Source: Sipunculus nudus (Eukaryota > Annelida > Sipuncula > Golfingiida > Sipunculidae). From it: a DNA stretch of 64,000 bases. Shown piece by piece: positions 17,372-59,500 of this stretch. The stretch lies in the NCBI GenBank assembly GCA_026874595.1, contig CM049308.1, positions 94,789,624 through 94,853,623 of the forward strand, read 5' to 3'. The position numbers and the translations under genes were made by a program. A model generated the notes under the pieces. That model saw only the letters and a program-made list of their open reading frames with translations. It had not been told where the DNA came from and did not search any database. Each line of letters opens with the position of its first letter. The stretch's first letter is position 1.

Positions 17372-17502
17372 ATGCCTTCCATAGCATCAGATTCAGACGG
17401 AGCATCAGACCACAGCTCCACGCAGAACACAGATAACGACCAGGACGATGATGACGTAGAAGAAACCCGCTCCACCGAGTCTGAAAGTGATACAGAAACG
17501 GA
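17372..17502 (+). CDS. TTLL5: TTLL5 coding exon 1
   Basis: Codes for the N-terminal 43 residues, starting [16 protein letters not shown] and ending in a Glu/Asp/Thr run. The stretch is acidic and probably disordered, as in vertebrate TTLL5. The donor GTAAGT begins at 17503. The last two bases, GA, complete an Asp codon with exon 2. Confidence 0.75.
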
Positions 17503-32500: not shown

Positions 32501-35500
32501 CACTTTCATAATTGTGGCCTTTATATTTCCTGGATACACCATCACCTACCTCATTGGCCTTCCTAAGACACATCCCCTTCACCTCATTGACCTTCCTAGG
32601 ACACATTTCCTTCACCTCATTGACCTTCCTTGGACATATCTCTGTCACCTCAGTGACCTTCCCAGGACACATCTCCTTCACCTTATTGACCTTCCTGGGA
32701 CATATCTCTTTCACCTCAGTGTTTCCCAGGACACATCTCCTTCCCCTAAATGACCTTCCTAGGACATATCTCTTTCACCTCAGTGACTGTCCTAGGACAC
32801 ATCTCCTTCACCTAATTGACCTTCCTAGGACACATCTCCTTCACCTCATTGACCTTCCTAGGACATATCTTTTTCACCTCAGTGACCTTCCCAGGACACA
32901 TCTCCTTCACCTTATTGATCTTTTCTTCACCACTGTGACCATTGTATCCCTAGCAACACCTCCTTCACTTCAATGACCAGGTATTCCCAGCAACTCCACC
33001 TTCACCTCAGTGACCATGTATCCCCAGCAACAACATTCTTTCACAACAATGAACAGGTATCCCTAGCAACACTTTCACTTCAATGACCAGGTTTCCCTAG
33101 CAACACCTCCTTCACCTCAGTGACCAGGTATCCCCATAGCAACAACACCTGCACTTCAGTGACAAGGATTCCCTATCAACACCTTCACTTCAATAACCAG
33201 GTATCCCTAGCAACACCTCCTTCAACTCAGTGACCAGGTATCCTAAGCAACACCAACTTCACCTCAGTGACCAGGTATCCCTAGCAAACCACCTTCACCT
33301 CAGTTTGCAGGTATCCCTAGCAACACCACCTTCACCTCAGTGACCAGGCAATACCACCATTGCCCCTCAGATCTTCTCCTCAAACATTTCATTAACCTCT
33401 ACCAGAAAAATCCAACCCATCCTAACTTCTTGTTAGTTGGTCTCCCCTTGGTACATATCTCTTGAGATTATGAAGTAGATGATTATGGTAGATAAGCTAT
33501 TACTGATCATAGTGAGTGTGATTGCTGACCATCATGGTCATCAGATTTGTCATAAGGACATATCACTCAGATATAGTGATGCAAGTTAACATTTTGGATT
33601 GGCTGGTGTTTAGATTAAAATCATCATGTGTGACCCAGATATCCAGGACCATTTATATTTTGTATTAACATGCTGCAGGTCAACCACAAACCATGGCAGG
33701 CAGGACTCACATCAGCCTGGAGTAAACCACAGTGGTGATGTTCTCTCATCTCCTGGCTCATTAGATCTGCAGTTCAGCTGTTTGTTCTCTCATCTCCTGG
33801 CCCATTAGATCTGCAGTTCAGCTGTCTGTTCTCTCATCTCCTGGCCCATTAGATCTGCAGTTCAACTGTCTGTTCTATCATCTCCTGGCCCATTAGATCT
33901 GCAGTTCAACTGTCTGTTCTCTCATCTCCTGGCCCATTAGATCTGCAGTTCAACTGTCTGTTCTCTCATCTCCTGGTCCATTAAATCTGCAGTTCAACTG
34001 TCTGTTCTCTCATCTCCTGGCCCATTTGATCTGCAGTTCAACTGTCTGTTCTCTCATCTCCTGGCCCATTAGATCTGCAGTTGAACTGTCTATTCTCTCA
34101 TCTCCTGGCCCATTAGATCTGCAGTTGAACTGTCTGTTCTCTCACCTCCTGGCCCATTAAATCTGCAGTTCAACTGTCTTAACTCTCATCTCCTGGCCCA
34201 TTAGATCTGCAGTTCAACTGTCTTAACTCTCATCTCCTGGCCCATTAGATCTGCAGTTCAGCTGTCTTATCTCTCATTTTGGAGCTGTCATTTGCTTCAC
34301 TGGATTTGTTACTCATTCTATCATATCTGTAATTTTGTTGTGATCCTTTAGCTAATTGGATCTGTAATTCATCTCATCTTATCTGTAATTCTCTTGTTAT
34401 TCTATGGGTCATTGGATCTGTAATTCATTCTCAGGTTACCCCTTTAGCTCATCTGATCTGTAAATCATCTCATCATATCTGTAATTCTCTGGTTATTCTT
34501 CACCTCATCAGATCTGTAATTCTCTGGTTATTCTTAATCTCATCAGATCTGTTATTCTCTGGTTATTCTTCACCTCATCAGATCTGTAATTATGGTTATT
34601 CTTCATCTCATCAGATCTGTAATTCTCTGGTTATTCTTCACCTCATCATATCTGTTATTCTCTGGTTATTCTTCATTTCAACAGATCTGTAATTCTCTGG
34701 TTATTCTTCACCTCATCATATCTGTTATTCTCTGGTTATTCTTCATTTCAACAGATCTGTAAATCTCTGGTTATTCTTCGTCTCATCAGATCTGTAATTC
34801 TCTGGTTATTCTTCACCTCATCATATCTGTTATTCTCTGGTTATTCTTCATTTCAACAGATCTGTAATTCTCTGGTTATTCTTCACCTCATCAGATCTGT
34901 AATTCTCTGGTTATTCTTCACCTCATCATATCTGTTATTCTCTGGTTATTCTTCATTTCAACAGATCTGTAATTCTCTGGTTATTCTTCACCTCATCAGA
35001 TCTGTAATTCTCTGGTTATTCTTCACCTCATCATATCTGTTATTCTCTGGTTATTCTTCATTTCAACAGATCTGTAATTCTCTGGTTATTCTTCATCTCA
35101 TCAGATCTGTAATTCTCTGGTTATTCTTCATCTCATCAGATCTGTAATTCTCTGGTTATTCTTCATCTCATCAGATCTGTAATTCTCTGGTTATTCTTCA
35201 TCTCATCAGATCTGTAATTCTCTGGTTATTCTTCATCTCATCAGATCTGTAATTCTCTGGTTATTCTTCACCTCATCATATCTAATATTCTCTGGTTATT
35301 CTTCATTTCAACAGATCTGTAATTGTCAGGTTATTCTTGATCCTCATCAGATCTGTAATTCTCTGGTTATTCTTCATCTCATCAGATCTGTAATTCTCTG
35401 GTTATTCTTCATCTCATCAGATCTGTAATTCTCTGGTTATTCTTCATCTCATCAGATCTGTAATTCTCTGGTTATTCTTCACCTCATCATATCTGTTATT

Positions 35501-38500
35501 CTCTGGTTATTCTTCATTTCAACAGATCTGTAATTCTCTGGTTATTCTTCGTCTCATCAGATCTGTAATTCTCTGGTTATGCTTCACCTCATCAGATCTG
35601 TAATTCTCTGGTTATTCTTCACCTCATCATATCTGTTATTCTCTGGTTATTCTTCATTTCAACAGATCTGTAATTCTCTGGTTATTCTTCGTCTCATTAG
35701 ATCTGTAATTCTCTGGTTATTCTTCATTTCAACAGATCTGTAATTCTCTGGTTATTCTTCACCTCATCAGATCTGTAATTCTCTGGTTATTCTTCATCTC
35801 ATCAGATCTGTTATTCTCTGGTTATTCTTCATTTCAACAGATCTGGAAATCTCTGGTTATTCTTCATCTCATCAGATCTGTAATTCTCTGGTTATTCTTC
35901 ATCTCATCAGATCTGTAATTCTCTGGTTATTCTTCATCTCATCAGATCTGTAATTCTCTGGTTATTCTTCACCTCATCATATCTGTTATTCTCTGGTTAT
36001 TCTTCATTTCAACAGATCTGTAATTCTCTCGTTATTCTTCACCTCATCATATCTGTTATTCTCTGGTTATTCTTCATTTCAACAGATCTGTAATTCTCTG
36101 GTTATTCTTCGTCTCATCAGATCTGTAATTCTCTGGTTATTCTTCATCTCATCATATCTGTAATTCTCTGGTTATTCTTCACCTCATCATATCTGTTATT
36201 CTCTGGTTATTCTTCATTTCAACAGATCTGTAATTCTCTGGTTATTCTTCACCTCATCAGATCTGTAATTCTCTGGTTATTCTTCGCCTCATCATATTTG
36301 TAATTCTCTTGTTATTCTTCACCCCATCAGATCTGTAATCCTCCCCATCATATTTAGAATTTTCCAGCTATTTCTTTGCAAAAATTCCCTTTCCCTGCAA
36401 GCAAGAATGGAGTTGTTTTTGTTTGTGAAGTATATATTGTGCATTATCTCATTTTTTCAGTGATGATAATGCAGCTATTGTGTGGACTGGTTATGGTAAG
36501 AGGACTCCCGTGCTCCTGTTCAGGGCGGAGAACTTAGTCAACAAACGCCATGATATCAAAGCCATAGGAGGTATGATGTGTATTTGTATGTGATTCCCCG
36601 CTTTGATTTGTATTGTCTTCATGTTAGATTAAGGGCTAATACAGCTGCTGAAAGGCCAGAATAAAGGCATGATCTAGGAAAATATGCTGTAATTCTATGA
36701 AACAGCCCTGCATATCAGCAGCCATAATTTAATAAGGTTATTAGCACAAATGGTAGTGGGCCCAAAATACACACAAGCTGGCAGCTGTATATATCCAGGA
36801 TAGTGTAGCTTGTTTATTTCATCCTGGGCTCAGCAGCATCTTTAGAGCAGGCTGATGCAGATGTACCAGGCTGATATGACCCATAAAACCAGGCTACAGT
36901 TGGCACTGGGCATTGTGCATCCTTGAATCTCTCAAAATCTGATAGCTTCATTACAGGGATCTGTATTTAGACTAATGGCAGTGAGAAATATGACATTATT
37001 TATCAGTGTTTAGAGCTGTCACAATACAAATGTGAACATTGCTGAAGAGATTTACCGTTAATGTTATTTAATTAACTTAGCAGTAGTGTTGAATTATAAG
37101 GCTGTAAACTGATGTAATCATTTGACTATTGCTGATGATTTCAGTACTCCTCAATGATTGTCAGTATATACTTGTTTTTTTTTTAAGAGCGATATCATTT
37201 GGCGTACAAGATGGTAAAGACAGAATGTAAACTTCTGCGTTCTATCTTGGGATCACATGGTTTTAGTGAGGTAAGTGATATGTATGTAAACTGCTGCAGT
37301 GTATCGTGGGATCACTTGACTTCAGTCAGATGAGAGATAAGAATGTAAACTACTGCAGGGAATTTTTTTAGATCCAATGACTTCAGTGAGTTAAGAGATA
37401 TGAAATTAAACTACTGCACTGTATTGTTGCATCACATAGCTTTAGTGAGATAAAATATATAGGTATAATATAGGTATAAACTGCTGTAGTGTATGATATT
37501 ACATGTCTGGTGACATCACTTTATGGTGTTGCCTATTGGGTTTGTGTTAGGTATGTTTTACCTGTAAGAGACAAAGTAAGTTTAGTGTTTTAGTGTACAT
37601 TAACATGACTTTTATCATTCAGGCACACCCTAACAGCCCTGATTTTAACCTGCTGTGGACTGGGTCTCACCTCAAGCCATACACATTGCGAGGTCTGCAG
37701 GAATTTCAAAAAGTCAATCATTTTCCAAGGTAAGTAACATCTGACATTGTTAATTTATCAAAACATGTTCAGAATCATTCTCAGCAAATACTTTCAGTTA
37801 CTTAGACCATGAGATATAAGCGTCCTGTTATAATTTGGTAATTAAAAAATTTTTTTTTTCTGTCATCAGGTCCTATGAAATTACTAGAAAGGATAGGTTG
37901 TTCAAAAATATTCAACGGATGCAACAGACCAAGGTTAGTGTTTATACTTACAATAATTTTAAAAAAAATCTATATAAAACAATGAAATGACTTGCTTTTT
38001 AGCGACAACTACTTATTGAAGTACTTTGTGATGACAAACATTTGAAGTGATCTTATTATTTATTGAAAAGATCATTTTAGTTCATTTATCAGATTGTTAG
38101 TTGTTCCTTTTGTACATATATGTATATATATATTTGTTTTATATTTCTATATAGCAGTATTTGTTATTTTTTATGCTTACTCTTACAAGAATTGACAGTT
38201 GTGTTAAATGTACAATTTTAAGTTTCAATACACACCACCTTCAAAGCTGTCTTTAACTTTATTAGGCATTATATTTTCTCTATTGTGCAAGTTCAGACCT
38301 CATATGTTAAGATTAATATATTACTTTGAATCAGTCTGGACTCTGATTTACCCATCAACCTTTGTTAATATTGGCCAGTCAGCCAGCATGTGGTAGCTTA
38401 CTTTCTTGGTTTCAGGGTTTCAAGCATTTTGACTTTGTACCACCAAGTTTTGTGATACCAGGAGAGTTCCAAGACTTCTGCAGTAAGTATAAACCTGGTC

Positions 38501-41500
38501 TTATGTCAGATTATTTCTATTATTTACATGTTATTTTAACATTAATGCTTATACTGACTATATTTTCAATTATCATAACAGCTGAGTAATCAGGGACACT
38601 GTATTGTGTATTTTTATCATACTTATGTATGTGATCTGACAATTGTACATGCATTTTATTATATTCAATTGCTGAACTGTGTGAAAAAATGATTTGAGAC
38701 TGCCTGCTTGTGATGATATTCCATTTCTTCAGTTAAGTCTGCTTAAGTACTTGTCTTTTAAGATTTAAGTAGTTAAATATGCAGTGATACCAAAACTGGT
38801 AAAGCAGTCACATGGCTCAGGACAGATAGATAGCATCTGACAGACTGTAGGCCAGGAGAAATCACAGACTAATAAATCTAGACAGATTTAGTTAATTCTT
38901 ATATTAATTAAGTTTTAATTCAGTAAAAAATTACTAGTAAAAAGCAAGAAATATACACATAGAGAATGTGTGGATGTGAAGACAGGTAGAACAGTTACCT
39001 AAATATTAGGAAAGAAAAGAAACCTGTGACTTCATGTCCTACCCAAGTTTGTGACTTTTTATCCGTGACTTTATTTTCTGTGACTTTTTTTCTTCCCCTC
39101 TTTGTTATTTCTGCTGTTTGCTGTATTGTATAGCAGAGTGATATATTGTTAAAATGCTGTTGAACTGACACACCTGCTGATTGTAAAACTAACTACATTT
39201 TATGTCATACAGCTAATTGTGATACAAAATTTAGTTTTATTGTTATAAATTCCATATATGATCTACAGCTGCTTACAGTGCCTGAAATCTTAAAACCTCA
39301 TTTGCTTGTGTGAACTTCTGTTGAATGTATATGTAAATTCAAAAGAAAATTTCTTGTTAGAAGCATTGTCAAGGTGAATTAGTGTAGTCAGGTAGTCATT
39401 GCAGTGTGGGCAGAACAATTTGATTAAAAAAAAAGTAGAAATGATGAAGCATTAATGACACTGATGTGGTCCATTAAACATTGTCTCGGGGTAATGACTT
39501 GTGTTAAATTAAGTGTTGCTCATTAGAAATATCTGCAAGATAGGGGTTATAATGACTTTTTTTTAGAATAGTTTAAATGCCACTCAATAATGCCTACTGG
39601 CACCCATAGGGCAAAAGGAGTTTTATGTTGCACACACTGCATCCCAATAATTATGTGTACCATATACCATAATAGTATCCATGCAGCCCCCACTGGTATA
39701 CGGGGCCAGTCTCACAAGATAATATACATGCAGAATCCCAGTCTATATCTAAAGCTGTGTTTACAAAGTCTGACCAATCAGCTTTATTTTAGTGTTATAA
39801 AGCTTGATATATGCAAATAAGTTTTCCTTTTTCAGCCTGGTTTTGTCATGATGGGTTTATCATTATCTTGTACATATTATACTGGGCCTACATTAAGAGG
39901 CCCTTGTTGAATGGACTTGTGTGCCTATGGACTTATATTACTCAAATTTCTGAATGGACGTGCTAACTCAGTTGTCTAAATATTCTACATCTGAGGGTGG
40001 TTTTGACTCTACTGTACATGGTTATATTTTACATTACTTTGTAGGTTTAATATTTTCTATGTTGTTCAATGTTCCAAAACTTTTGGAACAAATAAATCTT
40101 TATAGCCATTTGGGCCCATTCATTCATAAATAATTTTATAATTCATATGTGTTAGCATGAATGGTCAGTGTGTCATATATAATGATGTCCATCAGATATT
40201 AGGGGAAAGACATGTTTAGGATAGTTTTGTGCCAGTGGAATGGGGAAAATAAACATTAGAGAGTTCTGAAACATGTGATAGCTAATTAAAGTACTAATGT
40301 CTTGGGAATATTTATATAACCAAATCAGTATTTGTAAAATCCATTCATAGAGCAGTATTGTATACAAAAGTAATAGCAGGGACATATATCAGGGACAAAG
40401 CATTTGATATCAAATGTCAGCAAGTAAAACCTCTGAACTACCATGGAGCTGGTTTGTAAAAGTTTAGGCAGTTTCTCTGCAAAAACTTTGCAATCAGTAT
40501 CTTTCAGGGATCCTCTAGGAGATGCTATACAAGGCTCTGTTAGCTGGTACCCTTGCTGTGTATTTTAATGTACATTTAGTGAAATATAAACAGTAATGAG
40601 GCAATGTGTGGTAGCCAATGTAAACAGCATTCAGTCATAATTAATCATTGTCTGGTTGAGAGCTGCCCTGCATTAACGAGCTGGTGTAATTACAAGGGGA
40701 TGGTGGCTCTGCATGGTTTTATTTGCTGGTGATATTGATAGTGGTGTAAGCTGGCTTTGATCGTTCTGGTTTGCTTATTGATTTCTTGCTGGGGGTCGCT
40801 GTTGTGAGGCTGAACATAAAAAATGCAAAAAGGACACCAGTGAAATGTTGCTTTACCAGTGGGAAAGATGAAAGGCTGGAGGGAATAAACGAGAAGAGGT
40901 TCCTGTACATCCTGGTTGTAAACCAGCCTGTGCTGGGAACTGGCAGCATTTAAGCCAATTTTACTGCTGCATTTTGTATGTTTCCTGCTTGTATTCTCCC
41001 CATATATTCATTTTAATGTGTATACAAATACAGGTAACCTTGGTTACTCTACTCCAGTGCCAAGGTGACACAAACTTATTGCTTCAACTCTGTTTATTTA
41101 TTTGTTTATTTAACTAGCTCCACAGAATAACATTTGCATGTCTATTTAACATCTTTTACTGATGTTTGTAACATATAACCATTAAATACCCTGGTTTCAG
41201 CCTGCTATATCACATACTTCAGAGTATACATCAAGTTTATAATTTTAAGAATTGAAACTGGAAATACTCTGAAAAAATAAGTCCAAGGAATGCTTATTAC
41301 AACAATATTAACACAAATGGCATATTTCTAAATTCATTAAATTAAATGATAAAAAGTCTGTATTGCTTTTTGTATCTAATAAAACTCAGTAACTTACAAT
41401 TTAAACTTCATCTTCAGAGCCATACCTTTTCCTTAAACATGAGATGAACAAACATTCTGTAGTTTTTTAGCTCAGCTGACTGGCCAGAATGATGATCCAG

Positions 41501-44500
41501 AGAGTCAGATGGGACACAAATTGTATCCATTTGGCCTAGAATCTTCTTATGTGTTTTTAAAGGTGGTTTTTCATAAATGTCCTTGGAAACCTGAAACTAA
41601 GTAATGGTGAAAATATTCTGCAAGTGACTGGCCAAAAATATGATTATGAGCTCCCAGACAGTCAGCCAAGACACCAATTTGAAGTTAGGTCACTGTCTGT
41701 ATAATGTCTCTATAATGCTTATTACAAGAAGAAAACCTATTATTTAGCACCCAGGAATCACACAGGGCAGAAAATCTTAACTTTAGGATCTAGATATGTC
41801 TTTCTTAAAATAAAGTGAGGTCATTGTAATGTCTCTTTGGACATCCAAATAAGGTCACTGTGAGATATATTCTGTGAGCTGTGTGCAGAACATGATCTAG
41901 GTACCCTTTAAGTTAGATCGACAAAAAGCATAGCAGTTTGACATAAAATTTGCTAACTTAGGATTGGGGGAGTTCCTGTTGGACTGAAAATGTGCATATC
42001 CGTAGATCTTAGACTCCTCTATCTTTTACGTAAGACTGGTGGTGCCATCTGCTATCATTTTGCGTGGTGTCCATCTGTACATGTGCTTTTGGTGAAAATT
42101 GCTCATATCTCTGGAGTGGTTCAAGGTATTGGTCTTAAATTTGGCATGTGTATCCATCTTGGAAAATTTTCTTGAAAACCAGACAGGTGGCACAACCAAT
42201 CTTCCTGTTTCTGTAAAATAAATTAATGCTCTTTTCTCAAGAGAGATTCAACATATTTGGTGAAAAATATTGTTTCTCATGTTGATAGATGGAAGAAACC
42301 ATAGTCACTTGCTAAGTGTCAGTGTATGCTGCTGAAGATGAGGGGCCTCATCTTAAAGAGGGGTGGGGGGGGGGGGGGTGGGGGGATTTACTGTCTGGGG
42401 ATACTATCGCACCTGTGGTGTCAAGAAATATCTAGTTTATTTTTGTTTTTACCTGTTTTAGGTGCTTACCTCAAGGACAAAGGTCCATGGATTGTAAAAC
42501 CAATAGCCTCCTCCAGAGGGCGTGGCATATTCCTAGTCAATCATGTAAGTTTATAAAACAATAATGATCTGCCTACGAAGTTAATATGACTGCTAACCTA
42601 CAGTGATAAAGCCTTAAACTAAATGAATTAACTCATGGAAGTAGAACAGACCAAATCATCTGGTGAAAATTACCATATTTATCTGGATATATGTCATCAC
42701 TGTTTTGGTTGGCGTACATAAAATCATGCAAAATTGATAATTTGGAGTCATTAACTTTATTGCAATCTAAAAATCTAGAAAAGTATTTTCTTGTATAATC
42801 ATTTTCTTATGGGTTTCTCTGCCATGTTCAATTTTCTCTTGTATTTTTATCAGATGTGTTTCATTTTAACCCATAACTTTCATAATATTGTGATTAATAT
42901 GTATTTAGGTACATTGTGATATCAGTTGTGTTTCAGGTTTTGTCTTTTAACATAATTGTTCTCCTTGTCTTACAGCCAGAGCAAGTTCCACTGGATGACA
43001 CACTCATTATTTCACGATACCTCAACAATCCTCTGTTAGTTGATGGTAGGTTTTATACTCATTATTTAATGATACCTCAACAATCCTCTGTTAGTTGATG
43101 GTAGGTTTTATACTCATTATTTCACGATACCTCAACAATCCTCTGTTAGTTTATTGCAAGTTTTATACTCATTATTTCATGATACCTCAACAGTCATCTG
43201 TTAGTTGATGGTAGAATTTATACTCATTTTGTCACGATACCTGAACAATCCTCTTTTAGTTGATGGCAAATTTTATACTCATTATTTAATGATACCTCAA
43301 CAATCCTCTGTTAGTTGGTGGTAGGTTATATATTTATTATTTCACGATACCTCAACATTCCTCTTCACGATACCTGAACAATCCTCTGTAAGTTGATGGT
43401 AGGTTTTAAACTCAGTATCTCACAATACCTCAACAATCCTCTGTTAGTTGATGGTAGGTTTTATACTTATTATTTCATGATACCTCAACAATCTTCTGTT
43501 AGTTGATGGTAGGTTTTATACTTATTATTTCACAATGCATGAACAATTCTCTGTAAGTTGATGGTAGGTTTTGAACTCAGTATCTCACGATACCTCAACA
43601 ATCCTCTGTTAGTTGATGGTAGGTTTTATACTCATTATTTCACAATACCTGAACAGTCCTTTGACACTTGGATTATCTCAGACTTAGTACACACAGCAGC
43701 CTCTAGGCTGCTTAGGAATAACCTGTTATCTCTGGATGTATTGTCAACTGAAGAAACACCAGACAACTTGTATATACATCATATCAAAAGTTATTTACTG
43801 AACAGAAGATTTCTGTTGATTCATAGATCTACCCCTAGATGTCATTGTCTGTTAACCCAGGCACTGCCCAGATCAAGGTGTTTTATCCAGAGTCCATCTG
43901 TGTGTATGTCCTACAGAATTCAGTACAGAAGAAATTTAATACCTGGTAGACTTGAGTATTGATATATAATGTTCCCATGCTCACATGATGGTGTATGTAC
44001 TATGTTTCAGGCTTTAAGTTTGATTTGCGGCTGTACGTGGCAGTCACATCATATGACCCTGTCATCGTTTATCTTTATGAAGAAGGCCTCACCAGGTAGG
44101 TCTAGACTGAATTGTGATTTTTATTTCATATTGGAAACATGTAAATTCTTATTAAATTCTCATTATTGCAAATAGCAAATTTATCTTTATGATTGTGTTA
44201 AAAGCGAACTTACAGCTGTACAGAACTAATTTGTATGTTTGTTTGTTTGTATGTGTGTGTGGAGAGGGGGGGAATGAAACCTTAACTTGATGGTTTATCA
44301 GTAAAGTGATCTGGAGATGTGTAAAGTTTCCAGAAACTGCCTGATTATGTAATTTTTGTTAATTCAACTTTATCTTTTCTTTCTCCAGGTTTGCAACAGT
44401 CCAGTATGAGAAAGGAATCCGCCACATCCGCAACCAGTGCATGCACCTGACCAATTACAGTGTTAACAAGAAGAATTCTGACTATGTTAAGTAAGTCCTT

Positions 44501-47500
44501 ATGGCCTTATGCTAACACCAGTTACAGTGTTAACAAGAAGAATTATGACTATGTTAAATAAGTCCTTATGGCCTTATGCTAACACCAGTTACAGTGTTAA
44601 CAAGAAGAATTATGACTATGTTAAATAAGTCCTTATGGCCTTATGCTAACACCAGTTACAGTGTTAACAAGAAGAATTATGACTATGTTAAATAAGTCCT
44701 TATGTCCTTATGCTAACACCAGTTACAGTGTTAGCAAGAAGAATTATGACTATGTTAAATAAGTCCTTATGGCCTTATGCTAACACCAGTTACAGTGTTA
44801 ACAAGAAGAATTATGACTATGTTAAATAAGTCCTTATGGCCTTATGCTAACACCAGTTACAGTGTTAACAAGAAGAATTATGACTATGTTAAATAAGTCC
44901 TTATGGCCTTATGCTAACACCAGTTACAGTGTTAACAAGAAGAATTATGACTATGTTAAATAAGTCCTTATGGCCTTATGCTAACACCAGTTACAGTGTT
45001 AACAAGAAGAATTATGACTATGTTAAATCAGTTCTTATGGCCTTATGCTAACACCAGTTACAGCATTACCAAGAATAATGCGGACTATGTTAAGTAAGTC
45101 CTTATAAATGTCCTTATAGTAACACCAATTACAGTGTTAACAAGAATAATGCTGACTATGTAAGTCCTTATGTCCATATGGTAACATCAATGACAACATT
45201 AGAAAGAAAAATGCAATTATGTAAAGTGAGTCCTTATATCCTTATGATAACACCAATTACAGCATTAAATAGATTCAGATGAATGCTGACTATGTAAAAC
45301 TAGTCCTTCTAGCCTTAGAACTGTAACATCAGTTACAGTGACACAGTTACAAGAAAAAATACTGACTCAATTATGTAATCCCTTGTATCTTTATAAAAAC
45401 TTCATTTTAATATTAGCTTCTTGGTGTAGTTATAGAGATTTATTCAATGTGTTGTTTGAGTCATATCCATGTTCTGTCATAGGAACGATGATCCTGATGT
45501 TGAAGATTACGGCAACAAATGGTCACTCGGTGCTCTGCTCAGGTACCTCCGGTCTCAGGGCAAAGACACTACAGGTAAACCATAAAAAAATTTGTACAAA
45601 TTTTAGGCATAAACTCAGTATAAAATAGGTAAAAATAAATGAATCACAGCTACAGGGATCTGTATGCCCTTGGTCAGTTGGCTGCCAGTGTAATTACATA
45701 TTGTCTGTGTAAAATAGGATGTTCAATATAGAATTTTCTCATGTAATCTATAGCTGTGTTACTTCAGGGATTGAACAGTGACCTACAATACTTCTTGGTT
45801 CTGTATGAAATTATGTGATGCCTAGAGCTGACTGATCCCCCTTTTCTTGTGTGTTACTGGATCAGTTCTGATATTGTTTTTATCATGTTTACGATCATGG
45901 CTAAAACACAAACTTCAGTGTCCAAGTGAATCAGACAGCTAACCTTGTGCGTCCTCTGACCAGGATGCTGCTGATAAATCAAATCACATTTAAGTATTGA
46001 ATGGTACATCAGGTCTGAAGATAAACAATAATAAATAATATTTATGAAATATTTTGTAATCAGTAAATGCAAAACTGTATGTTGTAATTTATAGAAGAGA
46101 CACTGTTCTTTGTAGTTGAAAAATGAACAAAAGTTAACTCTGCCAGAGTGTGTGCCCCTCAGATGTACATGTCTGTGTGACCCTCAGCTGTACAGGTCTG
46201 TGTGACCCTCAGCTGTACAGGTCTGTGTGCCCCTCAGCTGTACAGGTCTATCTGCCCCTCAGTTGTACATGTCTGTGTGCCCCTCAGCTGTACATGTCTG
46301 TGTGTCCCTCAGTTGTACATGTCTGTGTGCCCCTCAGCTGTACATGTCTGTGTGCCCCTCAGCTGTACATGTCTGTGTGTCCCTCAGCTGTACATGTCTG
46401 TGTGCCCCTCCGCTGTACATGTCTGTGTGCCCCTCAGTTGTACATGTCTGTGTGCCCCTCAGCTGTACATGTCTGTGTGTCCCTCAGCTGTACATGTCTG
46501 TGTGCCCCTCCGCTGTACATGTCTGTGTGCCCCTCAGCTGTACATGTCTGTGTGTCCCTCAGCTGTACATGTCTGTGTGCCCCTCCGCTGTACATGTCTG
46601 TGTGCCCCTCAGCTGTACATGTCTGTGTGTCCCTCAGCTGTACATGTCTGTGTGCCCCTCAGCTGTACATGTCTGTGTGTCCCTCAGTTGTACATGTCTG
46701 TGTGCCCCTCAGCTGTACATGTCTGTGTGTCCCTCAGCTGTACATGTCTGTGTGCCCCTCCGCTGTACATGTCTGTGTGCCCCTCCGCTGTACATGTCTG
46801 TGTGCCCCTCAGCTGTACATGTCTGTGTGCCCCTCAGCTGTACATGTCTGTGTGCCCCTCAGCTGTACATGTCTGTGTCCCCCTCAGCTGTACATGTCTG
46901 TGTGCCCCTCAGCTGTACATGTCTGTGTGCCCCTCCGCTGTACATGTCTGTGTGCCCCTCCGCTGTACATGTCTGTGTGCCCCTCCGCTGTACATGTCTG
47001 TGTGCCCCTCCGCTGTACATGTCTGTGTGCCCCTCAGCTGTACATGTCTGTGTGCCCCTCAGCTGTACATGTCTGTGTGTCCCTCAGCTGTACATGTCTG
47101 TGTCCCCCTCAGCTGTACATGTCTGTGTGCCCCTCCGCTGTACATGTCTGTGTGCCCCTCAGCTGTACATGTCTGTGTGCCCCTCAGCTGTACATGTCTG
47201 TGTGTCCCTCAGCTGTACATGTCTGTGTCCCCCTCAGCTGTACATGTCTGTGTGCCCCTCCGCTGTACATGTCTGTGTGCCCCTCAGCTGTACATGTCTG
47301 TTTTAAGTGTTGATCACAAGATTTGTAGATTTCTGTTGTTTGCCTGTGGCAGCTCTTATGATGAGGATTGAAGATGTCATCATTAAAACCCTACTGTCAG
47401 CTGAACTTCCCATCGCCACAGCATGCAAGATGTTCATGCCATTCAGAGGAAATTGCTTTGGTGGGTGGTCTGCTATCATAGCCCTGAAATTAATTATTAC

Positions 47501-50500
47501 ATTAAACTATTACCATTACCCCAGCACTTCATATCAGTTACTTATCTGTAATTATAGCCACTGAGTTAATTATTAAATTTAAACTACAACTACACATGTC
47601 AATTTCATGTCAGGCTCCACTTTTAACAACTATTTGTGTATTCCCAAGTTTGATCAGGAGTTCTCTCTTTTACTGGGATGTCAGTGAATTGTTTCAATGA
47701 TTTGTCTGAAATGTCCCCCAGAATGTATTTTAGTCAGTGAACCTTGAACAGTTCTATAGAAAATACATAAGACTGTGTGTATTCAGGAGTGTGTTCTAAC
47801 CATGAGGCTATTACAGTGACATCTAAGATACATTTGTTTTATTTCTTCAACAATTCTTGGTGTATCTCACTATACTAAGTACAACTTATTTTCACAATAT
47901 TATGTTTTTGATGTTCTTGTTGGCTCTGAACTTATCTTACAGAGTTGTTTGTTTTATTTTATTTTACAGAACTGTATGTTTTTGATGTTCTTGTTGGCTC
48001 TGAACTTATCTTACAGAGTTGTTTGTTTTATTTTATTTTACAGAACTGTATGGTTTTGATGTTCTTGTTGATGACAACATGCGACCCTGGGTACTGGAAG
48101 TGAACCTGTCTCCGTCCCTGGCCTGGTCAGTTTACAGAGGGTTTCTACAATCATTTGGTTTTATGCTATATGGTAGCAACCTTTATCCTTTATTATCAGA
48201 CTCATAATCATAATCCTGTTGTGGCTTACTGCTTCATTCAGTAGTGTGTCAGTACCTTGATACCTGTCTGCTGAGACTAACCCCCTGTCTGCTGAGACTA
48301 ACCCCCAGTCTGCTGAGACTAACCCCGTGTCTGCTGAGACTAACCCCGTGTCTGCTGAGACTAACCCCCTGTCTGCTGAGACTAACCCAGTGTCTGCTGA
48401 GACTAACCCTGTGTCTGCTGAGACTAACCCCCTGTTTGCTGAGACTAACCCCCTGTCTGCTGAGACTAACCCCCTGTCTGCTGAGACTAACCCCCTGTCT
48501 GCTGAGTCTAACCACCTGTCTGCTGAGACTAACCCCCTGTCTGCTGAGACTAACCCCCAGTCTGCTGAGACTAACCCCGTGTCTGCTGAGACTAACCCCG
48601 TGTCTGCTGAGACTAACCCCCTGTCTGCTGAGACTAACCCAGTGTCTGCTGAGACTAACCCTGTGTCTGCTGAGACTAACCCCCTGTTTGCTGAGACTAA
48701 CCCCCTGTCTGCTGAGACTAACCCCCTGTCTGCTGAGACTAACCCCCTGTCTGCTGAGTCTAACCACCTGTCTGCTGAGACTAACCCCCTGTCTGCTGAG
48801 ACTAACCCCCTGTCTGCTGAGACTAACCCCCTGTCTGCTGAGTCTAACCCCCTGTCTGCTGAGACTAACCCCCTGTCTGCTGAGACTAACCCCCTGCTTC
48901 TGATACAGTAATACCTGTTGCAATGGTCATTTGGTCTCGTACATCAGGTAAGTGGAATAAACAGAAGCTTCTGTTTTGACATTTACCAGATCAGCCTTGT
49001 AAGTCCTGTTATTAACCTGTTAACTTTATAATATTAAATTATTTTTTTATTGTTTAACTGGAGACCTCATGAACTTAAGAAATATTTGACCTGGGTGCTT
49101 CTCTCTTTGCAGCGACTCCCCACTGGACCTGAAGATCAAATCAAACATGATGGCTGACCTCTTCAGTGTGGCAGGTGAGATCAAGATCATCCATGTCACA
49201 TGATTTGATTTTTTATACATCAGACAGGCACATTTGGCAGTTTTTATATGACCAGTAGAAAGGTGCAAATTAAGATAGATATGTACAAATCCACCATGTC
49301 AGAATAACCCTTAATAGTAAGTCTCAAATATTAAGGATTTATCTTCTTCTGTTGAGGATTAATCTTCTTCTGTTGAGGATTAATCTTCTTCTGTTGAGGA
49401 TTAATCTTCTTATATTCAGGATTTATCTTCTTTCGTTCAGGATTTGTCTTCTTATATTCAGAATTTATCTCCTCATTCAGGATTTATTTTCTTATATTCA
49501 TGTTTTATCTTCTTTTATTCAGGATTTATCTTCAATTATTCAGGATTTATCTTCTTAAATTCAGGATTTATCTTTTCATATTCAGGATTTATCTTCTCAT
49601 ATTCAGGATTTATCATCTTGTATATAGGATTTATCTTCTTTTATTTAGAATTTATCTTCTTTTATTCAGGATTTATCTTCTCAACCAGGATTTATCTTCT
49701 TGTATTCAGGATTTATCTTCTCGTTTTCAGGATTAATCATCTTGTATTTAGGATTTATCTTCTTTAATTCAGGATTTATCTTCTCAACCAGGATTTTTCT
49801 TTTCATATTCAGGATTTATCTTCTCGTTTTCAGGATTAATCATCTCATATTTAGGATTTATTTTCTTTTATTCAGGATTTATCTTCTTGTATTTAGGATT
49901 TATCTTCTTGTATTCAGGATTTATCTTCTTGTATTCAGGATTTATCTTCTCGTTTTCAGGATTAATCATCTCGTATTTAGGATTTAACTTCTTGTATTCA
50001 GGATTTATCTTCTCGTTTTCAGGATTAATCATCTCATATTTAGGATTTATCTTATTGTATTCAGGATTTATCTTCTCGTTTTCAGGATTAATCATCTCGT
50101 ATTTAGGATTTATCTTCTTGTATTCAGGATTTATCTTCTCGTTTTCAAGATTAATCATCTCGTATTTAGGATTTATCTTCTATATTCAGGATTTATCTTC
50201 TCGTTTTCAGGATTAATCATCTCGTATTTAGGATTTATTTTCTTTTATTCAGGATTTATCTTCTTGTATTCAGGATTTATCTTCTTGTATTCAGGATTTA
50301 TCTTCTCGTTTTCAAGATTAATCATCTCGTATTTAGGAATTATCTTCTTGTATTCAGGATTTATCTTCTCGTTTTCAGGATTAATCATCTCGTATTTAGG
50401 ATTTATCTTCTTGTATTCAGGATTTATCTTCTCGTTTTCAGGATTAATCATCTCGTATTTAGGATTTATTTTCTTTTATTCAGGATTTATCTTCTTGTAT

Positions 50501-53500
50501 TCAGGATTTATCTTCTTGTTTTCAGGATTTATCTTCTCGTTTTCAGGATTAATCATCTCGTATTTAGGATTTTATCTTCTTGTATTCAGGATTTATCTTC
50601 TCGTTTTCAGGATTAATCATCTCGTATTTAGGATTTATCTTCTTGTATTCAGGATTTATCTTCTCGTTTTCAGGATTAATCACTTCGTATTTAGGATTTA
50701 TTTTCTTTTATTCAGGATTTATCTTCTCGTTTTCAGGATTTATCATCTCGTATTTAGGATTTATCTTCTTGTATTCAGGATTTATCTTCTCGTTTTCAGG
50801 ATTAATCATCTTGTATTTAGGATTTATTTTCTTTTATTCAGGATTTATCTTCTCGTTTTCAGGATTTATCATCTCGTATTTAGGATTTATCTTCTTGTAT
50901 TCAGGATTTATCTTCTCGTTTTCAGGATTAATCATCTCGTATTTAGGATTTATCTTCTTGTATTCAGGATTTATCTGCCAGGATCCCATGATGAGGAAGA
51001 TCCCTCAGGCAAGGATCACTGGCAACAGATCTAAGGTAAGATGAGGATCACCATGGCGACACCATGGTATCTGTTGAATATGATGTAGAGACCTTGCATT
51101 TTGTTTATTCACCCTGTAATGCACCCTGCACTTTGCTTGCAGTATCTCAGTGTCCACACATTTAATTGATAGTGTGCAGCTGGACCTACACTTTCTCATG
51201 TTGATGTTCATGTTACTTTCATGTGATAAACCTTCTGTACAATTTAATGTGAACTATTTATATAATGTTTATTGTGAATACCTGAAGTATAGTCAATGTT
51301 TAATTAGTGTTTCTTATAATTACAAAACTTGTCTTCTAAAAACTTAAATGTGTCTTCATTAGAAGTTTTCATTTCACTGACATCAGAGATGCAGATCAAG
51401 AAGTTATAGTAGCAAATAAATAAAAACACTTTAATGAGCTGGCCTTAAGTCCTGTTAAAACATTAGAAGTGCGCCTTCACAGTTTATGAAACTGTTAGAA
51501 ATTAAACCTGAAAGCAAAACATTAGTTCCCAGATTAAGTAAGTCATCCAGATTCAACAAGATTAAATCAGTTATAAAAGTTTCAGATCTTTACAGTATTT
51601 GTTTTGCAAAAATAATACCCCTTTAAAAGTAGCTTACATTTCTTCAAGAACCTGGGGACAAGACTTTTTTGTGGAAGAACATTTTCTGTCTTTATAAAAC
51701 TGATCATTTACAAATACTACAGTAAACTATCTGCAAGGTCCAGATGACAAGGAAGGGATCAAGTCTTATGAATTGTAACAGCTGTGAGGGCATCGAGAGT
51801 AACCCTTGTGGGAAGATGGTACACAGATGCATCCTGGGATAGTGTTTCCTGACCCTTTTAGAACTCACAACCTCAGACACCGTATTTTATCTGAATGACC
51901 TCACGCACTGTGCATGTTGATGTAAATACAATAGTTTCTTATTGAAATTGTTTAATTGACCATAATGCATCTCTGCATGTCATTGCAAGGCTCCCATAAA
52001 GCACCGGTACTACAGTTGGTCTTCACGCTTTCACTATCGTGTGCATGCATGCTACTTCACATAGAAATCATTTTCTTGTAGTCTCCTGTTTGTAGCACCT
52101 GATGTTGTAGCACTGTGTGACCTTTTGACCTTGAAGTGCTTTTGATTTTGACTTGCAGTCAGCTCTTGGTAGACCTAAGTCTTCATATGTACCACGGGTA
52201 AGTCTCAGCTTGGCCACCAGATGGCCTTCATTTTCTCAGCAGCTTGCTGCCATCACAGGCAGGTGGCGCCAGCAGGCTGCCTCCTTTATTTCTTGCATCA
52301 TCTTGTGTCCTGTACTTTAACTATAATTTGAATACTTTCCTGGTGTTGTAGCTGTTTAGTTGGGTAGATCTACCTCATAATTTCCCTGAGTTATAAGTCA
52401 GTAGGAGAACCAGCAGTAGTCCTGGATTAATCACATCTGTTTGTTTTGTTCACAGTGACCATACGTTCAAGGTTTAAATACTATTATCCCTGGTTCATGG
52501 ATGTATCATAGATCCAGTCACATTTTATGTATAATTTTGAAATAGTACTTATTTAATACTAGCACGGTTTAACTTTGGCTTGTCAAATTGTCTTTTGGTT
52601 TTCAGTATTTTATCTTCAGTATCAGTTTAACTTGAGGTGCACAAATATTGCATTATTCGAGTACTTAGAATACTGTGTCATCTGAGAGGAAACCATTGTA
52701 TTCTCTCCCATATTTCATTCTCATTTTGACATGAAATTATAAATTTCATCATTAAAAATTTAGAAATTCAGTTTTTAATTGAGAAAGGAACATGGTAGAA
52801 AAAAAACAACAAGAAAGAAACATGGATGAGAAAAATGTTTCGGATATTGTAATGGTTTTGATATTAACCTACTAAAATATACCTTTTAACTGGTGCTTTA
52901 ATAATGCTTTGTTTTTAATGAATAATGGATTGATTTGAATGAGGGGGCTTGCACAATTGAACTTACCTTGTGTAATACTGGCTCAGGGAGAAGCTTGGTG
53001 AAGTCTAACTGATGAGCCACATGTTGATGTAGTGAGCTGAGACATTACACAATGACCCTACTGGTTTTAGGTAGCCCGATAGCCATCAGGTTTTTGTACC
53101 ATACATAAAGTTCCAAGATACCATGGTCTGTGGCATGGAGAGCATGTAATAATATCTGTAGTAGTGTTATGACAGTTAGGATTTGGAGTATTCTGATTCA
53201 GCACGCTGTTATCATTTTCCAGTTAATGATTTGTTTTAGAATGCTAATATCAGTAAAGTACATAGAATGGCCATCTAATTCAAGTGGCATGTGTTTAATT
53301 AAAGTTGCAGGTAATTAACCATGTATAAGAAGGATTAACAGGATGTCACATGATGGGTAACATCAGATTCAGATTTCACAGCATAGTGACTGACTTTGTG
53401 AATGTTGACTGACAGCCTGTCACATGAAGGGTAACATCAGATTCAGATTTCACAGTATAGTGACTGACCTTGTGAATGTTGACTGACAGCCTGTCACATG

Positions 53501-56500
53501 ATGGATAACATCAGATTCAGATTTCACAGTATAGTGACTGACGTTGTGAATGTTGACTGACATCTTGTCACATGATGGATAACATCAGATTCAGATTTCA
53601 CAGTATAGTGACTGACTTTGTGAATGTTGACTGACAGACTGTCACATGATGGATAACATCAGATTCAGATTTCACAGTAGAGTGACTGACTTTGTGAATG
53701 TTGACTGACATCCTGTCACATGATGGATAACATCAGATTCAGATTTTGCAGTATAGTGACTGACTTTGTGAATGTTGACTGACAGCCTGTCACATGATGG
53801 GTAACATCAGATTCAGATTTCACAGTATAGTGACTGACTTTGTGAAAGTTGACTGACATCTTGTCACATGATGGATAACATCAAATTAAGATTTCACAGT
53901 ATAGTGACTGACTTTGTGAATGTTGACTGACAGCCTGTCACATGATGGGTAACATTAGATTCAGATTTCACAGTATAGTGACTGACTGTGAATGTTGACT
54001 GACAGCCTGTCACATGATGGGTAACATCAGATTCAGATTTCACAGTATAGTGACTGACTTTGTGAATGTTGACTGACATCCTGTCACGTGATGGATAACA
54101 TCAGATTCAGATTTCACAGTATAGTGACTGACTTTGTGAATGTTGACTGACATCCTGTCACATGATGGATAACATCAGATTAAGATTTCACAGTAGAGTG
54201 ACTGACTTTGTGAATATTGACTGACAGCCTGTCAAATGATGGATAACACCAGATTCAGATTTCACAGTAGAGTGACTGACTTTGTGAATGTTGACTGACA
54301 GCCTGTCACATGATGGATAACATCAGATTCAGATTTCACAGTAGAGTGACTGACTTTGTGAATGTTGACTGTCCTCCTGTCACATGATGGAGAACATGAG
54401 CCTGGCCAGTTATTCTGACAAGCCAATTTTTGAATTGTTGTTGTAGTTGTTATGCTTCAGGTGCCCTGGCGCCAGGTTATGGCAGTACTGTATGGGTGTT
54501 TCTATCCCTTATCACATTGGCTCTGTGACATTTAAAACATCCACAAGGAGACATCTAAGGCTGAGATATTGACATAACCTGATGTGGTTAAGGCAGGACG
54601 GATTAAAGTGAAGATGAAGCCAGTCTATTAGAATGTATTGAACACACAAATGGCTGGTGTTCACCTGTCCTCAGTGTACATTGAGAGAACTGGGTACCAG
54701 TCTACTGCTGATTTTTTACAAATATGAATCATAAAATTATGAACATTACTATATTCAAGGTCAGCTTGACTCTGGGAACCTTATGTATTTTATTGAACTT
54801 GCTAATACTATTCGGTATATGTTAACAAGAGACTTTGCAGCCTGTAAAAGCTTTTACCAGAGCATTAAAAGAGATGGCATAATTAGAAAAACAATTCATT
54901 GTGATTTAATATAGTATGGATCTGTTACAGACTAATTCATTATTTGCTGTGATTTGATGTAATTTCATCATTTTGTTACAGACTAATATATTATTTGCTG
55001 TGATTTGATATTGTGTCGTCATTCTGTTACAGAATAATGTATTATTTGCTATGATTTGATAAAGTATCATTATTCTGCTACTGACTAATGTTTTATTTGC
55101 TGCTTTAATTCAAACAGACAGGGCTTGTCCCTTTTTCTAAGGTTTGTTGCGGACTGTGTGTTGTGGCTCATTGACATTCCTAACATAAAGACAAGATGAT
55201 TGTGTTATTAACAAAGTGTTGTGTTTCTGTTGTCACCCATCTTCCAACATCATTTTTATGATCTTCAGTTATTTATATCATAAACATGATGTAATGGGAG
55301 AATTCCTGGCAGTTATTTATATCATAAACATGATGCAGTGGGAGAATTCCTGGCAGAAGCACATTTATTTTTTTCAAAATTTGTTTTTGTTTATTTCAGT
55401 TCATTGACATGTTGGTCACATTTTTGATAGAAAATATTTCTCACTTGAAATGAGTTGGTGACAGCAGTGATCTTTGTGTACATTTTTGATCACATTAATT
55501 GATTTTAATTTCTGAGCATTTATGGAGTACTGTGACATGCTAAGTATGGTCAGCACATCTTAATACTTATGCTAATTTTCATATCAAGGATTCAAACCCT
55601 ATCACTTTATTTAATGTATTTTTGAGTGGTTGTTATTTTGGTGAATATAAATAAAAAGTGTATACTGAGCATATTTGACTCACAAGTTTTTATAAACTGC
55701 TTCATAACAATTAATGGTCAGAATAAACAAACAAATACCAAGCTCTACTATTGCATGACAGGGGAAAGGAATTTGTAATGTCTACTGTTTTCATGAGTTC
55801 ATAATTTTATACTAAAGATCACTGTCATGTTAAGTAACATTGAATTACAGGAAGAAAACACTAAGACATATAATTAAAAGTTTTATTGTGTGAAATTTTT
55901 TTTTGTAATGGAGCAAATTGACAATATCGTTAGGTATTGATGTTGCAGTCTCTCCACTGTATTCAGCTGGTGTGTGTTTGGTGATTTGATGTTGTATTGT
56001 GATTCAGAAAACCCGGCCTCAGTCAGCGGGGGGCAGCAGCCTGAGCGGAGTCGGGAAGGGCAAGATGAGCGGACTGACGTCGGAGGAGATAAAGATACTC
56101 AGGAGGAGCAGAGAGGAATACAGTCGGCGCGGAGGCTGGGTCCGGATATTCCCATCACCAGACTCCTGGGAGCTGTATGGGTAAGTTAAGTCATCATAGA
56201 GGCTTGGTCTGGATATTCCCATCACTGGACTGCTGGGAACTGTATTGGTAAGTAGTCATCATAGAGGCTGGGTCCACATATTCCCGTCACTGGACTCCTG
56301 GGAGCTGTACGGGTAAGTACAGTTGTCATAGAGGCTGGGTCTGAATATTCCCGTCACTGGACTGCTGGGAACTGTATGGGTAAGTACAGTCGTCATAGAG
56401 GCTGGGTCCGGATATTCCCGTCACTGGACTGCTGGGAACTGTATGGGTAAGTACAGTCGTCATAGAGGCTGGGTCCGGATATTCCCGTCACTGGACTGCT

Positions 56501-59500
56501 GGGAACTGTATGGGTAAGTACAGTTGTCATAGAGGCTGGGTCCGGATATTCCCGTCACTGGACTGCTGGGAGCTGTATGGGTAAGTACAGCCATCATAGA
56601 GGCTGGGTCTGAATATTCCCGTCACTGGACTGCTGGGAGCTGTATGGGTAAGTACAGTCGTCATAGAGGCTAGGTCTGAATATTCCCGTCACTGGACTGC
56701 TGGGAACTGAATGGGTAAGTACAGCCATCATAGAGGCTGGGTCCGGATATTCCCGTCACTGGACTGCTGGGAGCTGTATGGGTAAGTACAGCCATCATAG
56801 AGGCTGGGTCCGGATATTCCCGTCACTGGACTGCTGGGAACTGTATGGGTAAGTACAGCCATCATAGAGGCTGGGTCTGAATATTCCTGTCACTTGACTG
56901 CTGGGAGCTGTATGGGTAAGTACAGACATCATAGAGGCTGGGTCCGGATATTCCCGTCACTGGACTGCTGGGAACTGTATGGGTAAGTACAGCCATCATA
57001 GAGGCTGGGTCCGGATATTCCCGTCACTGGACTGCTGGGAACTGTATGGGTAAGTACAGCCATCATAGAGGCTGGGTCCGGATATTCCCGTCACTGGACT
57101 GCTGGGAGCTGTATGGGTAAATACAGCCATCATAGAGGCTAGGTCCGGATATTCCCGTCACTGGACTCCTGGGAACTGTATGGGTAAGTAGTCATCATAG
57201 AGGCAGGGTCCGGATATTCCCGTCACTGGACTGCTGGGAACTGTATGGGTAAGTACAGCCATCATAGAGGCTGGGTCTGAATATTCCCGTCACTTGACTG
57301 CTGGGAGCTGTATGGGTAAGTACAGCCATCATAGAGGCTGGGTCCGGATATTCCCGTCACTGGACTGCTGGGAACTGTATGGGTAAGTACAGTCGTTATA
57401 GAGGCTGGGTCCGGATATTCCCGTCACTGGACTGCTGGGAACTGTATGGGTAAGTACAGTCGTCATAGAGGCTGGGTCCGGATATTCCCGTCACTGGACT
57501 GCTGGGAGCTGTATGGGTAAGTACAGCCATCATAGAGGCTGGGTCTGAATATTCCCGTCACTGGACTGCTGGGAACTGTATGGGTAAGTACAGTCGTCAT
57601 AGAGGCTGGGTCTGAATATTCCCGTCACTGGACTGCTGGGAGCTGTATGGTTAAGTACAGCCATCATAGAGGCTGGGTCTGAATATTCCCGTCACTGGAC
57701 TGCTGGGAACTGTATGGGTAAGTACAGCCATCATAGAGGCTGGGTCCGGATATTCCCGTCACTGGACTGCTGGGAACTGTATGGGTAAGTACAGTCGTCA
57801 TAGAGGCTGGGTCTGAATATTCCCGTCACTGGACTGCTGGGAGCTGTATGGGTAAGTACAGTCGTCATAGAGGCTGGGTCCGGATATTCCCGTCACTGGA
57901 CTCCTGGGAGCTGTATGGGTAAGTACAGCCATCATAGAGGCTGGGTCTGAAATTTCCCGTCACTGGACTGCTGGGAGCTGTATGGGTAAGTACAGTCGTC
58001 ATAGAGGCTGGGTCCGGATATTCCCGTCACTGGACTGCTGTGAGCTGTATGGGTAAGTACAGCCATCATAGAGGCTGGGTCTGAATATTCCCGTCACTGG
58101 ACTCCTGGGAGCTGTATGGGTAAGTACAGCCATCATAGAGGCTGGGTCTGAATATTCCCGTCACTGGACTCCTGGTAGCTGTATGGGTAAGTACAGCCAT
58201 CATAGAGGCTGGGTCTGAATATTCCCGTCACTGGACTGCTGGGAGCTGTATGGGTAAGTACAGTCGTCATAGAGACTGGGTCCGGATATTCCCGTCACTG
58301 GACTGCTGGGAGCTGTATGGGTAAGTACAGCCATCATAGAGGCTGGGTCTGAATATTCCCGTCACTGGACTCCTGGGAACTGTATGGGTAAGTACAGCCA
58401 TCATAGAGGCTGGGTCTGAATATTCCCGTCACTGGACTGCTGGGAGCTGTATGGGTAAGTAGCCATCATAGAGGCAGGGTCCGGATATTCCCGTCACTGG
58501 ACTGCTGGGAACTGTATGGGTAAGTACAGCCATCATAGAGGCTGGGTCTGAATATTCCCATCACTGGACTGCTGGGAACTGTATGGGTAAGTACAGCCAT
58601 CATAGAGGCTGGGTCTGAATATTCCCGTCACTGGACTGCTGGGAGCTGTATGGGTAAGTACAGCCATCATAGAGGCTGGGTCTGAATATTCCCGTCACTG
58701 GACTGCTGGGAACTGTATGGGTAAGTAGTCATCATAGAGGCTGGGTCTGAATATTCCCGTCACTGGACTCCTGGGAGCTGTATGGGTAAGTACAGCCATC
58801 ATAGAGGCTGGGTCCGGATATTCCCGTCACTGGACTCCTGGGAACTGTATGGGTAAGTAGTCATCATAGAGGCAGGGTCCGGATATTCCCGTCACTGGAC
58901 TGCTGGGAACTGTATGGGTAAGTACAGCCATCATAGAGGCTGGGTCTGAATATTCCCGTCACTGGACTGCTGGGAACTGTATGGGTAAGTACAGTCGTCA
59001 TAGAGGCTGGGTCCGGATATTCCCGTCACTGGACTGCTGGGAACTGTATGGGTAAGTACAGCCATCATAGAGGCTGGGTCTGAATATTCCCGTCACTGGA
59101 CTGCTGGGAACTGTATGGGTAAGTACAGCCATCATAGAGGCTGGGTCTGAATATTCCCGTCACTGGACTCCTGGGAACTGTATGGGTAAGTAGTCATCAT
59201 AGAGGCAGGGTCCGGATATTCCCGTCACTGGACTGCTGGGAGCTGTATGGGTAAGTACAGCCATCATAGAGGCTGGGTCTGAATATTCCCGTCACTGGAC
59301 TCCTGGGAACTGTATGGGTAAGTAGTCATCATAGAGGCAGGGTCCGGATATTCCCGTCACTGGACTGCTGGGAGCTGTATGGGTAAGTACAGCCATCATA
59401 GAGGCTGGGTCCGGATGTTCCCATCGCAGGACTCAGGGGAGCTGTTCTAAATGTTGTTTCTTGTAGCTATGTTATATTGTGTTCAGTGTATTTATATATG

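Follow-up and report, generated by a model that had tools for sequence, protein, structure and literature searches.

Six minisatellites spanning exon-intron borders in a single TTLL-type gene of Sipunculus nudus

In amphioxus, minisatellites whose repeat unit spans an exon-intron border have been described as "mirages" in Adh3, in TnC, in the globin genes BflGb6 and BflGb9, and in PGBD5 (PMC3087553, PMC3902484). Here we describe six arrays of this kind in a tubulin ligase gene of the TTLL type, contained in 64,000 nucleotides of the Sipunculus nudus genome (assembly GCA_026874595.1, contig CM049308.1, positions 94,789,624 to 94,853,623 of the forward strand). We refer to this whole stretch as the window; its GC content is 0.381 and its CpG observed/expected ratio is 0.29. 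The amphioxus reports place boundary-spanning repeats at both the 5' and the 3' borders of exons, reportedly without disturbance of regular splicing, and describe instability of array length, with somatic instability at Adh3 (PMC3087553, PMC3902484).

Comparable arrangements are known from human genes. CBS carries a 31-bp variable number of tandem repeats (c.1444_1467+7) in 16-21 copies (PMC2630376), which resembles the arrays described here in being a tandem unit of coding and intron bases at a donor border, and differs from them in being a single array with a shorter unit. The CBS variant 844ins68 duplicates the junction of intron 7 and exon 8, and is not pathogenic, as the upstream copy is spliced out (PMC2630376); in contrast to the present arrays, it is one duplication and forms no array. 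Human segmental duplications contain internal tandem repeats at exon-intron boundaries that are able to alter splicing (PMC2812944). These minisatellites likewise sit at the border, but they differ from one paralogue to another and have been associated with new introns (PMC2812944). Tandem arrays of dual splice sites have also been connected with the architecture of the UBC gene (PMC10809524). A limited literature search (titles, abstract openings, and parts of PMC7931591) found no prior report from molluscs.

The arrays in the window share the main properties of the amphioxus mirages. The repeat unit spans the exon-intron border and the true exon is one of the copies in six of the six arrays; both donors (four arrays) and acceptors (two arrays) are affected; many, although not all, of the copies over the whole set carry the AG or GT; and the exon's own copy lies at the edge of the array. 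The unit lengths can be likened to the 10-160 bp of the amphioxus units. The locus differs in holding six arrays in one gene, compared to one or two per gene in the amphioxus cases described, and in copy numbers of up to 49 and 79, compared to 2-7 where these are stated. Splicing and instability have been reported for the amphioxus mirages, whereas the arrays described here are known from the sequence of one haplotype. Border-spanning minisatellites are already known in kind; their density in this gene is unusual.

The arrays were called with Tandem Repeats Finder (TRF; 57 rows in the window), and the crossing of the borders was checked by lag profiles. The original prediction, made from the sequence alone, had placed arrays built from exon borders in six introns of one gene and had taken them to be independent events. 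Both analyses placed the six arrays where they had been predicted, each crossing a splice site: the arrays in introns 3, 8, 10, and 17 (units of 59, 55, 67, and 67 bp) copy the donor, and those in introns 12 and 14 (74 and 21 bp) copy the acceptor. All six units hold exonic bases together with the splice site (Table 1). According to the lag profiles, the exon's own copy is copy 1 in the four donor arrays and the last copy in the two acceptor arrays, and the remaining copies are intronic. In intron 10, further decayed copies extend out to about position 45400. The weakest of the six are the array of intron 3, whose roughly four copies are 72% alike, that of intron 12, with 2.3 copies, and that of intron 14, whose unit includes few coding bases.

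Table 1. Positions in the window of the border arrays, the host gene, and the non-border arrays.
Feature	Position	Strand	Evidence or true splice site
Intron 3 donor array, 59 bp unit (48 exonic + 11 intronic), ~4 decayed copies, 72% alike	37223..37460	+	true donor 37270/37271
Intron 8 donor array, 55 bp unit (44 + 11), 11-12 copies	43002..43660	+	true donor 43045/43046
Intron 10 donor array, 67 bp unit (41 + 26), ~10.6 copies	44450..45161	+	TRF, lag profiles
Intron 12 acceptor array, 74 bp unit, ~27 exonic bases, 2.3 copies	47901..48070	+	true acceptor 48043/48044
Intron 14 acceptor array, 21 bp unit, ~9-10 exonic bases, ~79 copies	49329..50976	+	true acceptor 50967/50968
Intron 17 donor array, 67 bp unit (49 + 18), 49 copies	56132..59433	+	true donor 56180/56181
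Exons 2-19, TTLL-type polyglutamylase gene	36461..60447	+	joined translation, Pfam, PDB matches
Putative first coding exon (exon 1), acidic N-terminus, donor GTAAGT	17372..17502	+	exon scan
Ten non-border arrays, intron 1	19768..36343	.	TRF; in null count
Non-border array, 25 bp, intron 11	46149..47301	.	TRF
Non-border array, 21 bp, intron 13	48263..48903	.	TRF
Three non-border arrays (74, 51, 44 bp), intron 16	53344..55356	.	TRF

Self-similarity at the six array borders is high (z of 10.8-45.9). Among the 30 other borders of the gene, only the exon 9 donor (z of 4.6) exceeded the 95% level set by 150 control windows from introns, which is about the rate expected by chance. The idea that these other borders hide decayed duplications was rejected on this basis. 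Each unit was also compared to all exon regions. The scores against its own border were 69-158, and the second-best scores, to other exon regions, were 19-22, which is the level of shuffled sequences. Every unit matches its own border, and no other exon region, above the shuffled level. The units are unrelated to one another, which supports an independent birth of each of the six arrays, as had been proposed.

We consider it likely that these arrays are independently born, tolerated border-spanning minisatellites that drift neutrally. Each array would have started as a short tandem duplication that by chance spanned an exon-intron border. Such a duplication can be tolerated, since the intact exon is still joined by one complete splice site; splicing from the first donor, or to the last acceptor, would yield the normal mRNA, and the surplus copies would turn into intron. 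Slippage or unequal exchange may then have multiplied the surplus copies, which would have drifted as a neutral minisatellite, with the exon copy meanwhile held by selection. We infer both the mechanism of duplication and the choice of splice site from the anatomy of the arrays.

The exons of the host gene were read from the sequence and joined by their splice signals. Exons 2-19 (18 exons) join into a single open frame of 506 codons, and the joined translation is intact. The joined protein contains a TTL domain (Pfam PF03133, E-value 6.3e-91), and its best relatives among solved structures in the PDB are TTLL6 (E-value 4.5e-67) and TTLL7 (E-value 2.1e-61). No TTLL5 chain was found among the PDB matches; by resemblance, we presume the gene to be TTLL5. 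The exon scan returned 17372-17502 as the sole candidate for exon 1 that passed the filters (ATG, right phase, acidic, donor pattern); it is a putative assignment, and Pfam gave no match for this exon. The intron numbers of the original prediction agree with ours provided that 17372-17502 is counted as exon 1. By eye, we also spotted a possible in-frame microexon of 24 bp in the interval between exons 16 and 17 (55118-55141; AAACAG/ACAGGG...TCTAAG/GTTTGT, with slashes at the candidate splice junctions).

The original prediction had also held that random minisatellite birth would rarely land on exon borders six times, and that this points to a shared cause. Its count omitted the arrays away from the borders. 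After TRF rows had been merged by hand, the gene region contained 21 clear arrays, 15 of them off the border, including ten in intron 1; the six border arrays add to these 15 other intron arrays in a region rich in arrays. Rows outside the span of exons 1-19 were excluded, as were three weak rows (score <=65), which were added in a variant with 24 arrays. For the main null model, we collapsed the arrays to one unit each and placed the units at random in the gene. Under this model 1.42 border arrays are expected, compared to six of 21 observed (P = 0.002). All P values given here are post hoc, from a single gene that was picked for looking this way.

Placing the arrays at full length gave an expectation of 0.71 against the six observed (P = 5e-5), and restricting the count to exons 2-19 gave 1.16 against six of 11 (P = 3e-4). 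When at least 20 exonic bases were required, the array of intron 14 dropped out, and five arrays were observed for 0.88 expected (P = 0.001). The expectations were 1.50 for the set of 24 arrays and 1.57 when any exonic overlap was counted (P = 0.003 for both). Doubling the founder span raised the expectation to 2.37 (P = 0.025). Weighting the placement by GC content raised it to 1.88, with P values of 0.008 for six, 0.03 for five, and 0.11 for four arrays; for the four donor arrays alone, P ranged from 0.005 to 0.05, or was 0.11 with GC weighting. The mean GC content of the border arrays is 0.351, compared to 0.419 for the others. The border arrays are not GC-rich and the GC-weighted P value for six arrays is still 0.008; a preference for GC was therefore rejected as the cause of their placement. 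The excess of border hits is suggestive, and in one hand-picked gene it is no proof of a shared cause.

A shared cause could operate if exon borders were a preferred birthplace of minisatellites in this genome, through mutation linked to transcription or splicing (R-loops, conflict with replication, or the step in base composition at the exon edge). The excess under the main and the GC-weighted null models, the unrelated units at six borders, and the presence of such arrays in several unrelated amphioxus genes (PMC3087553, PMC3902484) all speak for this possibility. However, the count comes from a single gene chosen post hoc, it weakens to P = 0.025 with the doubled founder span and to P = 0.005-0.05, or 0.11 with GC weighting, for the donor arrays alone, and weak duplications are not in excess at the 30 other borders (one of 30). 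The four donor-array borders are also of ordinary strength, with 7-8 positions matching the complement of U1 compared to a mean of 7.47 for the other donors. We consider a preferred birthplace rather unlikely. Slightly more doubtful is a hot spot specific to the lineage, in which a process tied to splice sites duplicates borders and seeds dozens of strong-looking sites that the spliceosome must ignore. If borders do seed arrays above the level of other intron DNA, mutation would thereby have a path to new introns and splice sites; such a route from mirages has already been proposed for amphioxus (PMC3087553).

To compare the copies within the arrays, we counted those that carry the splice-site dinucleotide, with the true exon copy included. 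The GT is kept in 9/11 copies in intron 8, 2/10 in intron 10, 48/49 in intron 17, and 1/3 of the copies found in intron 3; the AG is kept in 76/79 copies in intron 14 and in both of the copies found in intron 12. The copied splice sites have mostly been lost in introns 3 and 10. Eight of the ten copies in intron 10 carry AT in place of GT, and copies at the far end retain the GT. Of the 11 positions compared with the U1 complement, the 48 GT copies of intron 17 match 7-9, and the true donor matches seven.

The near-complete retention in introns 14 and 17 is what would be expected if selection kept the arrays, the many splice-site copies having a role such as U1 binding or the tuning of splicing. 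Retention by selection was one of the causes suggested in the original prediction. Conservation of the GT and AG columns was tested in introns 8, 14, and 17, and in these arrays the columns stay within the ordinary range, being neither conserved nor lost to an unusual degree. The fraction of windows that diverged as little or less was 0.63 for the GT of intron 17, 0.19 for its GTAAGT, 0.24 for the AG of intron 14, and 0.82 for the GT of intron 8. Together with the low retention of GT in introns 10 and 3, these values speak against selection on the copied splice sites, and we regard a role for the copies as highly improbable.

The mean column divergence in the exonic and the intronic part of the unit, calculated with the exon copy included, is 0.045 and 0.062 in intron 17, 0.066 and 0.083 in intron 8, 0.067 and 0.054 in intron 10, and 0.151 and 0.159 in intron 3. 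Since the GT and AG columns tested in introns 8, 14, and 17 are ordinary and the exonic part of the donor units varies about as much as the intronic part, the copies resemble repeats that drift neutrally. In intron 17, the identity of the exon copy to the other copies is 0.871, compared to 0.930 between neighbours, without a trend with distance. The identity to the exon copy drops with distance in intron 10 (rho = -0.84); in intron 14 the correlation is weak (rho = -0.21, p = 0.06). The 11 copies of intron 8 have 0-5 mismatches in 35 positions, and this array contains an internal deletion. A higher-order repeat in the array of intron 14 was looked for and rejected, as no lag from 15 to 399 exceeded 0.8.

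The alternative splice sites were then read in the frame of exons 2-19. All 58 alternative GT donor copies found (eight in intron 8, three in intron 10, 47 in intron 17, and none in intron 3) lead to a premature stop. The upstream acceptor copy of intron 12 also leads to a premature stop; another AG within the unit, 27 bases upstream, does not. In intron 14 we found 68 upstream copies of AG/GATTNAT (slash at the splice junction), 39 in frame and 29 out of frame, and 18 of the 68 are without a premature stop. Use of these stop-free AGs is predicted to add up to 126 residues.

The array of intron 14 might accordingly be read as a source of alternative exon sequence, with each upstream AG adding in-frame units of seven residues. 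Its unit of 21 bp is divisible by three, and the 39 in-frame and 18 stop-free copies are consistent with this idea. Against it, 29 of the 68 copies do not keep the frame, a hydrophobic repeat would be inserted directly after the catalytic domain, and none of the other five arrays has a unit length divisible by three. The openness of the array is no evidence either, because it has long open stretches in all three forward frames. We give this explanation even less credence than selection on the splice-site copies. The least probable explanation is that the assembler inflated or misplaced short duplications; such arrays are difficult to assemble, but the six units are unrelated and their copies differ by many distinct substitutions (mean column divergence of 0.05-0.15 in the five arrays aligned, which exclude intron 12).

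Several results weigh against the view that the arrays are tolerated and neutral. That view assumes that splicing takes the first donor or the last acceptor. In intron 17, the 47 inner donors are at least equal to the true one in their likeness to U1, yet the cell must pick the first. In intron 14, the 18 stop-free copies would leave the frame open if used. The share of arrays on borders exceeds that of random placement (P of 0.002-0.025), and plain tolerance leaves this excess unexplained. Intron 17 thus offers a natural setting for testing how a splice site is chosen: it has 48 GT donor copies, of which the first alone preserves the protein.

We also asked whether the units of the non-border arrays derive from exon borders. 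Fourteen of the 15 units were compared (the array at 34301-34433 was left out), with 60 shuffles each. Eleven of the 14 resemble exon borders no better than the shuffles do. The other three have weak border matches of 14-25 bases: those at 53344 and 48263 (0/60 shuffles scored as high for either) and that at 54900 (3/60). The last of these, at 54900-55102, weakly resembles the intron end before exon 17, which is 900 bp away. Its 51-bp consensus unit contains the acceptor-like sequence TTCTGTTACAG.

Intron 1 (about 19 kb) consists mostly of its ten tandem arrays, which have units of 22-60 bp, total about 12 kb, and make no contact with an exon. One of them, a 33-bp array at 28553-31840, contains a minus-strand open frame of 1095 codons and plus-strand open frames of 561 and 644 codons; these long frames probably reflect merely a unit free of stops. 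In the 21-bp array at 48263-48903, a block of about 12 units appears by eye to recur with hardly any changes, which points to a recent duplication of the block. The array at 15454-16659, which is not within the coding part of the gene, has units of 144/291 bp and contains the motif GGTCAAAGGTCAAGGTCAC. The region 3147-3413 matches a fragment of the reverse-transcriptase zinc-binding domain (zf-RVT, E-value 5.1e-07), a retrotransposon remnant.

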